Assembly (NCBI RefSeq): GCF_000819885.1
Contig: NZ_CDBO01000034.1
Span: 555 to 64,554, forward strand
Direction: 5' to 3'
DNA from: Aeromonas fluvialis
GTDB lineage: Bacteria > Pseudomonadota > Gammaproteobacteria > Enterobacterales > Aeromonadaceae
Length of the DNA: 64,000 bases
In this document: positions 49,650 to 53,635 of the stretch, in pieces
How positions within the stretch are numbered: position 1 is the stretch's first letter
Layout of the letters: every line of letters starts with the position of its first letter
Position numbers and translations under genes: made by a program
Notes under the pieces: model-generated
The model's input: only the letters and a program-made list of their open reading frames with translations
Databases searched by the model: none
What the model was told of the DNA's origin: nothing

Positions 49650-49970
49650 TCAGCTCTTCTGGATATCGAGCCGGATGGCGCCCACCGGCTTGCAACAACA
49701 GGGGAGGCACTCCCCCTCGGAGACAAAGGCGAGCGGCACATTGGGGTAGTGCACCTTGCCCGTGATGAGCGGGGTTCGGCAGGCGCCGCAATAGCCGCTG
49801 CGGCACTGGAACTCGACCCGATGGCCGTAGCGCTCCAGGGTCTCCAGCACGCTTTCGCCGGGATGGGCGTGCAGCACGCCATCCCGGGTATGTACCCGTG
49901 GAGCCTGCACAGCCTGCATTTCGGCTTGTTCATGTGGGGCAGGGGGCAGCCTGTTGGTGGCGTCACTCAC
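49650..49970 (-). CDS. yfaE: 2Fe-2S ferredoxin YfaE, class I RNR maintenance protein
   Basis: A 106-residue ferredoxin. C56, C61 and C64 (CRSGYCGACRTP) and a later Cys in CLPCCC (about 88-93) form the plant-type 2Fe-2S site. E. coli YfaE supplies electrons to regenerate the diferric-tyrosyl radical cofactor of NrdB. The GTG at 49970 gives a GTGA overlap with the small frame upstream; it adds about 20 residues relative to E. coli YfaE (84 aa). The ATG at 49919 is an alternative start. Third gene of the nrd operon. Confidence 0.9.
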   Translation of the reverse strand: MSDATNRLPPAPHEQAEMQAVQAPRVHTRDGVLHAHPGESVLETLERYGHRVEFQCRSGYCGACRTPLITGKVHYPNVPLAFVSEGECLPCCCKPVGAIRLDIQKS

Positions 49971-50047
49971 AGCTCGAAATCACCTAGCTCATTGGTATTC
50001 ACTTCACTGTCGTGCTGGCCAACTAGCATATCAGATAACTGGTTCAC
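49967..50047 (-). CDS. 26-codon frame encoding a second NrdB C-terminal tail
   Basis: This frame starts at GTG (50045-50047), overlapping the nrdB TGA in a GTGA junction, and ends in a TGA that overlaps the yfaE GTG the same way. An internal ATG at 50027-50029 is a second possible start. Its last 23 residues align with the NrdB C-terminus at 16 positions: LVGQ, DSEVN and LGDFEL are shared. Among the 16 shared residues, at least 8 codons differ silently. No strong ribosome site is seen, so expression would depend on coupling to nrdB. It is either a remnant of an older nrdB 3' end or a retained tail peptide; I cannot decide between them. Confidence 0.55.
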
Positions 50048-51177
50048 AGCTCGAAGTCACCCAGATCGTCGGCATTGACTTCGCTGTCGATCTGACCCAC
50101 CAGGTAGGAGCTTACCTCTACCTCTTGCGGGGCGACCTGTACGTTGTCGGAAGAGAGCCAAGTGTTGATCCAGGGGATTGGGTTCTGTTTCGCGCCCTCA
50201 AAGGCGGGTTGCAGACCCACAGCTGCCATCCGCAGGTTGGTGATGTATTCCACGTACTGGCAGAGGATATCCTTGTTCAGGCCGATCATGGATCCGTCCT
50301 GGAACAGGTACTCGGCCCACTCTTTCTCCTGTATGGCGGCCTCTTTGAACAGATCGAAGCTGGCCTGCTCGCATTCCCGTGCGATCTCGACCATCTCTGG
50401 GTCGTCCTGACCGCTGCCCATCAGGTTCAGCATATGCTGGGTACCGGTCAGGTGCAGTGCCTCGTCACGGGCGATCATCTTGATGATCTTGGCGTTGCCC
50501 TCCATCAGCTCCCGCTCGGCGAACGCGAAAGAACAGGCAAAGCTGACATAGAAGCGGATCGCCTCCAATGCGTTGACGCTCATCAGACACAGATAGAGCT
50601 TCTTCTTCAGCTCGCGCAATGTGATGGTCACCTCGCGGCCAGCTACCTGATGGGTGCCTTCACCATGCAGGTTGTAGAGGGCGGTCGCCTCGATCAAATC
50701 GTCGTAGAAGTGGCTGATGGAGCCGGCGCGCTTCAAGATCTGCTCGTTGGTGACGATATCGTCAAACACCTGAGCGGGGGTGTTGACGATGTTGCGGATG
50801 ATATGGGTGTAGGAGCGAGAGTGGATGGTCTCGGAGAAGGCCCAGGTCTCGATCCAGGTTTCCAGCTCCGGGATGGAGACCAGGGGCAGCAGCGCCACGT
50901 TGGGGCTACGGCCCTGGATGGAGTCCAGCAGGGTCTGGTACTTGAGGTTGGAGATGAAGATGTGCTGTTCGTGCGGGGGCAGGGCCTGGTAGTCGATGCG
51001 ATCACGGGAGACATCCACCTCTTCCGGGCGCCAGAAGAAGGAGAGTTGCTTTTCGATCAGCCGCTCGAACACTTCGTGCTTTTGCTGGTCATAACGGGCT
51101 ACGTTGACCGATTGGCCAAAAAACATCGGCTCTTTGAGCTGGTCGTTTTGGGTTTGGCAGAAAGTTGAATAGGCCAT
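50044..51177 (-). CDS. nrdB: Class Ia ribonucleotide reductase, beta subunit
   Basis: A 377-residue R2 protein. The diiron ligands lie in the ferritin-like bundle: PPHEQHIF and [17 protein letters not shown] near the N-terminal half, and ECEQASFD and [14 protein letters not shown] later. The C-terminal tail [11 protein letters not shown]...LGDFEL is the segment that docks on NrdA. R2 holds the tyrosyl radical that starts ribonucleotide reduction. It follows nrdA by 80 bases and is followed by a second, diverged copy of its own tail. Confidence 0.97.
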
Positions 51178-51257: not shown

Positions 51258-53525
51258 TTAGATTTTGCAAGCCCCGCCGGCACAACCGTCATCTTGCAGA
51301 TCGGTCTGGGTATCGTCGGCACCATCACGGGTGTTGTGATAGTAGAGGGTCTTGAGGCCGTATTTGTAGGCGGTCAGCAAGTCCTTCAGCAACTGTTTCA
51401 TCGGGACCTTGTTGCCTTCGAAACGGGCCGGGTCGTAGTTGGTATTGGCGGAGATCGCCTGATCCACAAACTTCTGCATGATACCGACCAGCTGCAGGTA
51501 GCCGTCAACGCTCGGCTGCTTCCAGAGCAGTTCATATTGATCTTTCAGGCGCTCATACTCGGGCACTACCTGTTTGAGAATGCCGTCCTTGGATGCCTTG
51601 ACCGACACCAGGCCGCGCGGAGGCTCGATGCCGTTGGTGGCATTGGATATTTGGCTGGAGGTCTCGCTCGGCATCAGGGCGGTCAGGGTGGAGTTGCGCA
51701 GACCCACGGTGCGGATCTCTTCGCGCAGGGCTTCCCAATCCAGGTGCAGCGGCTCGTTGCACAGTACATCCAGATCCTTCTTGTAGGTGTCGATCGGCAA
51801 GATCCCTTGGGCATAGGTGGTCTCGCCAAACAGCGGGCAGGGGCCAAATTCGCGCGCCAGTTGCACGGAAGCTTTCAGCAGGTAGTACTGAATCGCTTCG
51901 AAGGTGCGGTGAGTCAGAGCCAGACCGGAGCCGTCAGAGTAGCGGACTCCGTTCTTGGCCAGGTAGTAGGCGTAGTTGATGACGCCGATCCCCAGAGTAC
52001 GACGACCCATGCTGCCACGCTTGGCGGCGGCAATCGGATAGTCCTGATAGTCGAGCAGGGCATCGAGGGCTCGCACCGCCAGATCGGCCATCTCTTCCAG
52101 ATCGTCGAGCTTGTCGATAGCGCCCAGGTTGAAGGCAGAGAGGGTGCACAGGGCGATCTCGCCGTTCTCGTCGTCGATGTTGTTGAGCGGCTTGGTCGGC
52201 AGCGCAATCTCGAGACAGAGGTTGGACTGGCGTACCGGGGCCACGCTCGGATCGAACGGGCTGTGAGTGTTGCAGTGATCGACGTTCTGGATGTAGATGC
52301 GACCGGTACCGGCACGCTCCTGCATCATCAGGGAGAAAAGCTCCACCGCCTTGAGGGTCTTCTTGCGAATGGCCGGATCCTGCTCGTACTTGATGTAGAG
52401 CGCTTCGAATTGTTCCTGATCGGCGAAGAAGGCATCGTACAGACCCGGCGCATCGGACGGGGAGAACAGGGTGATATCACCGCCCTTGATGAGGCGCTGA
52501 TACATCAGCTTGTTGATCTGTACACCGTAGTCCATGTGACGAACCCGGTTCTCTTCCACCCCGCGGTTGTTCTTCAGTACCAGCAGGCTCTCCACTTCGG
52601 TGTGCCACAGCGGGTAGAACAGGGTAGCCGCACCGCCGCGCACCCCGCCCTGGGAGCAGCACTTCACGGCAGTCTGGAAGTATTTGTAGAAGGGGATGCA
52701 ACCGGTGTGGAAGGCTTCGCCGCCACGGATGGGGCTACCCAGACCGCGAATTCGGCCGGCGTTGATGCCGATACCGGCGCGCTGGGAGACATAACGCACG
52801 ATGGAGCTGGCGGTGGCGTTGATGGAATCCAGGCTGTCATCGCACTCGATCAGGACGCAGGAGCTGAACTGGCGGGTCGGGGTGCGCACGCCGCTCATGA
52901 TCGGGGTCGGCAGGGAGATCTTGAAGGTCGAGACCGCATCATAGAAGCGCTTGATGTAGTCCAGACGAGTATCTTTTGGGTACTTGGAGAAGAGGCAGGC
53001 CGCGACCAGGATGTAGAGGAACTGCGGGCTTTCGTAGATCTCGCCGGTGACGCGGTTTTGTACCAGATATTTGCCTTCCAACTGCTTGACCGCCGCGTAG
53101 GAGAAATCCATGTCGCGCCAGTGATCCATGTGGGTGTTCAGCTCTTCGAACTCGGCCTGGGTGTAGTCTTCCAGCAGGTGTTTGTCATACTTGCCCATGT
53201 CCACCAGACGAGCCACGTGCTGGTAGAGGTGGGGCGGTTCAAACTGGCCATAGGCTTTCTTGCGCAGGTGGAAGATGGCCAGACGGGCAGCCATGTACTG
53301 GTAGTCAGGGGTCTGCTCTGAGATGAGGTCAGCCGTCGCCTTGATGATGGTTTCGTGAATGTCGGCGGTACGGATGCCGTCATAGAACTGGATGTGGGAC
53401 TTGAGCTCTACCTGGGAGACCGACACGTTGTCGAGACCCTCGGCGGCCCAGTCCAGCACGCGGTGAATTTTATCCAGATCGATGGGTTCTTTGTGTCCGT
53501 TACGCTTCGTCACAAACAAGTTCAT
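51258..53525 (-). CDS. nrdA: Class Ia ribonucleotide reductase, alpha subunit
   Basis: A 755-residue R1 protein closely matching E. coli NrdA. The N-terminal ATP-cone is present (LFVTKRNGHKEPIDLDKIHRVLDWAAEGL). Active-site features include SSCVLIE (redox Cys), NLCLEIALPT (with the thiyl-radical Cys) and the C-terminal redox pair CAGGACKI. It reduces ribonucleoside diphosphates. I chose the ATG at 53525 (MNLFVTKRNG) to match the family; a longer frame to 53561 adds nothing recognisable. First gene of nrdA-nrdB-(tail)-yfaE. Confidence 0.97.
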   Translation of the reverse strand: MNLFVTKRNGHKEPIDLDKIHRVLDWAAEGLDNVSVSQVELKSHIQFYDGIRTADIHETIIKATADLISEQTPDYQYMAARLAIFHLRKKAYGQFEPPHLYQHVARLVDMGKYDKHLLEDYTQAEFEELNTHMDHWRDMDFSYAAVKQLEGKYLVQNRVTGEIYESPQFLYILVAACLFSKYPKDTRLDYIKRFYDAVSTFKISLPTPIMSGVRTPTRQFSSCVLIECDDSLDSINATASSIVRYVSQRAGIGINAGRIRGLGSPIRGGEAFHTGCIPFYKYFQTAVKCCSQGGVRGGAATLFYPLWHTEVESLLVLKNNRGVEENRVRHMDYGVQINKLMYQRLIKGGDITLFSPSDAPGLYDAFFADQEQFEALYIKYEQDPAIRKKTLKAVELFSLMMQERAGTGRIYIQNVDHCNTHSPFDPSVAPVRQSNLCLEIALPTKPLNNIDDENGEIALCTLSAFNLGAIDKLDDLEEMADLAVRALDALLDYQDYPIAAAKRGSMGRRTLGIGVINYAYYLAKNGVRYSDGSGLALTHRTFEAIQYYLLKASVQLAREFGPCPLFGETTYAQGILPIDTYKKDLDVLCNEPLHLDWEALREEIRTVGLRNSTLTALMPSETSSQISNATNGIEPPRGLVSVKASKDGILKQVVPEYERLKDQYELLWKQPSVDGYLQLVGIMQKFVDQAISANTNYDPARFEGNKVPMKQLLKDLLTAYKYGLKTLYYHNTRDGADDTQTDLQDDGCAGGACKI

Positions 53526-53635
53526 TGGCTGATGACCTTCAGTTGATTCCCGAAAAACCATCGCACGTCACCCGTCTGCCAGCGGTCACAGGAGGACGGA
53601 CCGATGCAGTTGTTGGGTAACTATTGTGCGATGAA

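Follow-up and report, generated by a model that had tools for sequence, protein, structure and literature searches.

A second nrdB 3' end at the nrdB-yfaE junction of Aeromonas, possibly acting as a relay cistron

Three described systems may be compared with the short frame considered here. The first is termination-reinitiation, together with the short ORFs that deliver ribosomes to a following gene. In the cited part of a study with E. coli reporters, termination-reinitiation fell by 80-90% in two gene pairs at a spacing of 38 nt and was lost altogether in a third (PMC10666635). In an excerpt from another study, 13 of 14 gene pairs are given as strictly coupled at their overlaps (PMC6728339). 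The second system, the nearest analogue, is mycobacterial MIRU, presented in a section of PMC12548453. This short unit sits at the start of a gene, and coupling of its ORF at -4 nt is taken there to let the unit insert with little effect on that gene. Repeats of 77 bp between senX3 and regX3 in mycobacteria are mentioned in an excerpt of PMC9392950. The third system is that of NrdB (R2) tail peptides binding NrdA (R1). A passage of PMC3483043 states that the mouse R2 C-terminal heptapeptide inhibits RNR and that the E. coli R2 tail peptide was solved in complex with R1.

The stretch analysed here, called the window, is 64,000 nucleotides of an Aeromonas fluvialis contig (NZ_CDBO01000034.1). 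In it, nrdA, nrdB and yfaE form one run on the minus strand and a mini-ORF sits between nrdB and yfaE. The features are as follows.

51258..53561, minus strand: nrdA, class Ia RNR large subunit (NF006578)
50044..51177, minus strand: nrdB, class Ia RNR small subunit (NF006576)
50044..50100, minus strand: original 3' end of nrdB, last 18 codons plus stop
49967..50047, minus strand: 26-codon mini-ORF (proposed relay frame), from a GTG overlapping the nrdB stop to a TGA overlapping the yfaE start
50044..50047, minus strand: GTGA overlap of nrdB stop and mini-ORF start
50024..50043, minus strand: 5' part of the 77-bp insert, 20 nt; candidate sources are the yfaE start or the nrdB codons that immediately precede the copied segment
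49967..50023, minus strand: second copy of the nrdB 3' end, 45/57 nt identical to the first
49979..49985, minus strand: AGGTGAT, Shine-Dalgarno-like, in the second tail's L-G-D codons and ending 8 nt ahead of the yfaE GTG
49967..49970, minus strand: GTGA overlap of mini-ORF stop and yfaE start
49650..49970, minus strand: yfaE, class I RNR maintenance ferredoxin (NF007985, Fer2)

The GTG of the mini-ORF (50047-50045) and its TGA (49969-49967) thus give 4-nt overlaps with the nrdB stop and with the yfaE GTG, the geometry that a relay ORF requires at both ends. The frame, its start and stop and the two overlaps, all on the minus strand, are as claimed in a preliminary description of this DNA. Its counts also hold when repeated by eye: the NrdB tail is matched at 16 of the last 23 residues, with silent differences in 8 of the 16 shared codons. 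Over the 57-nt second copy, which starts at VGQ, 12 nucleotides and four residues differ from the window's own nrdB end.

The resemblance between the two tails is not due to chance, because the only matches are two adjacent ones, because DNA, profile and structure matches agree, and because a doubled tail is present in 8 of the 37 Aeromonas genomes, the window included. With a 28-residue NrdB-tail query, the whole genome of the window gives only two matches at E<=1, which are adjacent, the second having an E value of 1.0e-4. A DNA search of the same genome finds the second copy at 78% identity over 60 nt (E 1.5e-7), the remaining matches being only 14-17 nt long (E 1.8 and 3.3). The mini-ORF also matches positions 353-376 of the NrdB model NF006576 (E 0.008) and solved RNR beta chains (7mdi_E, E 0.00023). 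It further matches the 20-residue R2 chain 1r1r_D (E 0.012), the tail, including the Leu that precedes VGQ, aligning with residues 2-20 of that chain. These searches and the recurrence establish the mini-ORF as a second nrdB tail, as had been proposed.

Like MIRU, the mini-ORF joins the downstream gene at a -4 nt spacing. Unlike MIRU, the Aeromonas unit duplicates the end of the very gene it adjoins, was found at a single locus in its own genome and bears no sign of mobility. The shared length of 77 bp is probably a coincidence. By analogy, the unit would work like MIRU, but it is not MIRU because it copies the end of a neighbouring gene and is found at one locus. With known ribosome-delivering ORFs, as far as the cited parts of PMC10666635, PMC6728339 and PMC12548453 describe them, the mini-ORF shares the 4-nt overlaps on both sides and the dependence on distance. 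It differs from them in lying within an operon between two established genes and in having arisen by partial duplication of the upstream gene; furthermore, the coupling is here predicted from sequence. The likeness to NrdB tail peptides lies in the tail sequence itself (residues 2-20 of 1r1r_D), whereas the mini-ORF is a separate frame with an unrelated start, and its docking end is not kept in all carriers. Among the matches listed by a search of the open-access literature, no description of such a second nrdB tail was found, which is weak evidence of absence.

In each of the 37 Aeromonas genomes searched, nrdB is followed by an intact yfaE. In 17 of them, no extra DNA is present at the junction and yfaE directly overlaps nrdB: an intact yfaE frame runs in 17/17 from a codon overlapping the nrdB stop, by 4 nt in 15 genomes and by 1 nt in two, these putative starts having been read off the sequence. 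The other 20 genomes carry extra junction DNA, with gaps of 31-76 nt. A full second tail is found in eight of these carriers, each time as a 77-bp insert with a full frame. They are the window, A. allosaccharophila, A. finlandensis, A. sobria, A. aquatica, A. piscicola, A. popoffii and genome G035. The remaining 12 carriers form a decay series. One of them (G025) is 3 nt longer than the 77-bp type and has lost the GTG, nrdB ending with TAA; another (G003) shows an in-frame loss of 42 nt, and in the other ten the gaps are shorter or scrambled. Among these ten, the last 21 nt before yfaE are clearly like those of intact copies in five (G022, G004, G012, G032 and G017, P<0.004), weakly so in G031 (P 0.026) and at the borderline in G023 and G026 (0.07), while G007 (0.32) and G036 (0.94) show no likeness over these 21 nt.

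Three related gaps of 55-64 nt, each from a different species (G012, G017 and G032; loci L205, L209 and L210), keep an open frame, for example VIKQCGAGVIGGTIAILGEIAP, whose peptide resembles the NrdB tail only at its end. Full-length matches to the sequence of these gaps occur solely at the nrdB-yfaE junction, short partial matches being found in other genomes.

In the genomes and loci covered here, the doubled tail was seen in Aeromonas only. At 62 loci from other bacteria, no tail-like stretch was detected within 300 nt after nrdB, the best scores being 14-26 as compared with a tail self-score of 103-111. Among 38 other Aeromonadaceae genomes, the tail was matched in 36 and an adjacent second tail in none; a weak and distant second match occurs in one of them (G059, E 0.29). 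Finally, an order-wide sample of 247 genomes gave a tail match in 179, 18 of which are Aeromonadaceae. Two matches were obtained in G000, G002 and G230 only, the second one of G230 lying on another contig. Adjacent matches were thus confined to Aeromonas, with no adjacent double tail outside the genus among the 247 genomes, as judged with an Aeromonas tail query at a cut-off of E 0.05, settings that might overlook a diverged second copy in a remote genus.

How did the insert arise? The best account is one old in-place duplication within Aeromonas, followed by repeated loss or erosion and by partial homogenisation through gene conversion. The insert measures 77 bp in 8/8 intact carriers. Its 20-nt 5' part shows 0-2/20 differences among six genomes (G001, G013, G035, G028, G020 and G021) that span both main species groups. 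Equal length and a near-identical 5' part across both groups suggest that the insert arose once and was afterwards lost or exchanged by recombination. The window and A. aquatica differ at 5-9/20 and 3-9/20 positions, respectively, and their 5' parts would have drifted. For the scrambled gaps, independent origins may still be envisaged. On a gyrB+rpoB tree built by a quick method, all genomes with extra DNA fall into one group of 31 species (support 89, not starred), and 11 members of this group are without the insert. At least eight changes of state are needed on this tree, as against seven on the nrdB tree, nine on the yfaE tree, nine on the nrdA tree (35 rows) and seven on the gyrA tree (32 rows).

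A 77-bp tandem duplication across the nrdB end and the yfaE start would predict an ungapped match of the 5' part to the yfaE start. Without gaps, the 5' part matches one yfaE start at 10/20 positions (G034, P 0.011) and the best of the 37 yfaE starts at 12/20 (G029, P 0.012). With gaps, it does not exceed shuffles against yfaE starts (P 0.32) and matches nrdB just upstream of the copied segment (P 0.0125). The two candidate sources fit equally well, one in ungapped and the other in gapped comparison.

Another origin had been put forward in the preliminary description, where the frame was viewed as an allele-replacement scar, left when a homologous nrdB came in and was joined upstream of the 3' end of an older gene. 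A full nrdB followed by another tail is indeed the structure expected of such a scar, and A. sobria looks like the recipient of a transferred nrdB. Its nrdB is nearest to that of A. piscicola (support 87, within a starred set of five) and its yfaE is nearest to those of G035 and A. allosaccharophila (within a starred set of six). However, the 5' part of the A. sobria insert is identical to that of G035, so that the nrdB import does not explain the insert. Moreover, the AU test rejects a single clade for the nrdB bodies of the 20 gap carriers (p 1.6e-43) and likewise for those of the eight intact carriers (1.4e-140). Neither the nrdB trees nor the AU test give the carriers a shared nrdB origin apart from the non-carriers, and the nrdB of the window is nearest, by path, to that of no-insert genomes (G015, G030 and G016). 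The uniform 77 bp of the eight intact carriers is what one short in-place duplication gives. Because the carriers' nrdB bodies are rejected as a clade, a replacement scar is not supported as the common cause; the data contradict it, and we regard it as highly improbable.

The A. sobria case is informative in another respect. Between its second tail and its nrdB end, 2/57 nt differ, as compared with 7-12 in the other seven intact carriers. Most simply, nrdB would have been imported in this lineage and the second tail then overwritten from the imported gene. Furthermore, at a position of the tail occupied by N or H, both copies agree within each genome in 8/8 intact carriers. The two copies are subject to gene conversion, most clearly in A. 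sobria, and their silent divergence thus reflects the time since the last conversion. The divergence had been taken to reflect either two alleles or selection; it needs neither. It may also be observed that, in A. sobria (loci L007/L196), a recombination breakpoint lies near the nrdB-yfaE junction, and that the second tail matches the new nrdB.

Concerning the function of the mini-ORF, we put at about even the chance that it is a relay cistron, keeping translation of yfaE coupled to that of nrdB. In such a model, a short in-place duplication would copy the last 18 codons of nrdB plus the stop, creating a mini-ORF between nrdB and yfaE. Since the copied segment carries the stop/start overlap as well as a GGTGAY motif, the new frame would at once be linked by 4-nt overlaps to both genes. 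Ribosomes finishing nrdB would restart on the mini-ORF and be delivered to yfaE, and ferredoxin synthesis would thereby stay tied to NrdB synthesis. The peptide itself would be of little weight, so that the tail may drift, be overwritten by gene conversion from nrdB, or be deleted.

The case for this relay is suggestive. Given the strong dependence on distance reported in E. coli, a gap of 31-76 nt should uncouple yfaE unless it is bridged. Under a strict definition, a frame bridges nrdB to yfaE in 18 of the 20 gap genomes, 12 of them with 4-nt overlaps at both ends, and under a loose one in all 20; the definition of a bridge was fixed after the sequences had been seen, and shuffling gives the strict bridge a per-genome probability of 0.02-0.81. 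Such a bridging frame is present even in gaps whose peptide has lost its likeness to the tail. The GTG frame is open in 19/20 gaps, as compared with 11/40 for the other forward frames and 35/60 for the reverse frames; when one genome is taken per sequence family, this test is not significant (Fisher P ~0.16, and 0.28 without the copy family). In families that can be aligned by eye, the length differences are multiples of 3 (-42 and +3 for the 77-bp type; gaps of 55, 61 and 64 nt). Seven of the 20 gaps (G022, G004, G036, G007, G023, G026 and G031) have lengths that differ from 73 nt by something other than a multiple of 3 and are thus out of step with the copy. Two of these (G022 and G004) are recognisably derived from the copy, so that at least one lineage has lost the frame it began with; the bridge there is a new frame that stops 8 nt inside yfaE. 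The frame of G023 stops 4 nt short of yfaE, and G031 bridges only from a TTG.

The ribosome-binding motif may also be considered. GGTGAY stands ahead of yfaE in 10/10 copy-type gaps, a conservation which may be plain inheritance from the nrdB codons. In the window, the AGGTGAT duplex has an energy of -9.3 kcal/mol, against a mean of -5.4 after shuffling, and 4.5% of the shuffled sequences pair as strongly. Pairing with the rRNA end exceeds that of 95% of shuffles in three of the ten copy-type gaps only, and it is weak in G032, G017 and G036. The main rival to the relay cistron is that the duplication has no role, yfaE initiating on its own from the GGTGAY in the copied DNA and the mini-ORF being open because it was open at birth in GC-rich DNA. 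We hold such a neutral remnant to be the case with roughly one chance in three. It would account for the absence of the insert in 11/31 species of the group that holds it, for the loss of the full tail in 12/20 carriers, for the seven out-of-step gaps and for the family-level result of the frame test, but less readily for a frame bridging the gap in 18-20 of 20 genomes.

Coding constraint also bears on this alternative. Among the eight intact frames, pN/pS is 0.27, as compared with 0.08 for their own nrdB tail, 0.06 for the rest of nrdB and 0.28 for yfaE. Neutral simulations, run with the third-position transition bias of nrdB and kept only if stop-free, gave a mean of 0.67. This dN/dS-type comparison thus places the intact frames under the neutral expectation (P 0.001; 0.0008 without A. 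sobria), with the reservation that the genomes were chosen as intact and that conditioning on stop-free simulations covers this bias only partly. The tail part alone gives P 0.006, a value that conversion from nrdB can lower, and the 5' part alone 0.038. The four veronii-group genomes taken alone give 0.09, and the three hydrophila-type genomes 0.025. Neutrality is thereby rejected for the eight frames together but not for the veronii-group four. There is weak coding constraint on the intact frames, less than on nrdB. A pN/pS of 0.27 is more constraint than a pure relay predicts, and conversion from nrdB could be the cause of the share contributed by the tail.

Such a constraint could be expected if the peptide itself mattered. 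In this third reading, also advanced in the preliminary description, the product would be a free NrdB tail, made in ratio to NrdB, which would dock on NrdA and compete with NrdB. The mini-ORF would then be a real gene, a separately translated brake on RNR, matched by conversion to the NrdB of its own genome in the remaining carriers. In addition to pN/pS, the alignment to residues 2-20 of 1r1r_D, the LGDFEL end in six of the eight intact copies and the agreement of both tails at the N/H position in 8/8 genomes speak for it. Nevertheless, the insert is absent from 17/37 genomes, the full tail is present in just 8/20 carriers, and the concerted N/H states can be explained by gene conversion. By sequence, the NrdA-docking tail is present in the mini-ORF, yet the docking residues are not conserved among carriers: in place of GDFEL, the G035 copy ends in GDFKL and the A. 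aquatica copy in GDFAP. It had been anticipated that an interrupted frame in relatives would speak against a peptide, and the Aeromonas junctions do include eroded, deleted and shifted versions, which bears this out in part. The modulating peptide is therefore weakened by the scarcity of the full tail and by its two altered ends, and retains the weak coding constraint in its favour. We judge it very unlikely, both as a competitor of NrdB and as a real gene in its own right.

The idea that the tail is kept as part of a coupling to yfaE fared better, as it fits all 37 junctions best, this fit falling short of a proof of coupling. If the relay cistron is right, it would offer a simple birth route for a small coupled cistron. 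Copying an overlapping stop/start junction would double both the overlap and the ribosome-binding motif, and the newcomer would be wired into the operon at once. Aeromonas would then provide a graded series, from the intact copy to an unrecognisable bridge, in which it may be asked what selection keeps: the peptide, an open frame or only the binding motif.

Two observations concern the neighbouring genes. In the longest nrdA frame, MVFRESTEGHQP precedes MNLFVTKRNG (window 53526-53561, minus strand). Since the match to the NrdA model NF006578 begins at residue 14 of this frame, the true start of nrdA is probably the later, second Met. On the other side of the junction, YfaE of the window has about 24 extra N-terminal residues ahead of the RVHTRDG core (49899-49970, minus strand), and its Fer2 match runs only from residue 33 on. 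This extension changes rapidly among Aeromonas (for instance at loci L060, L063 and L066), and the yfaE genes of Oceanimonas and Zobellella start nearly at the RVHTRDG core, at the overlap with nrdB.
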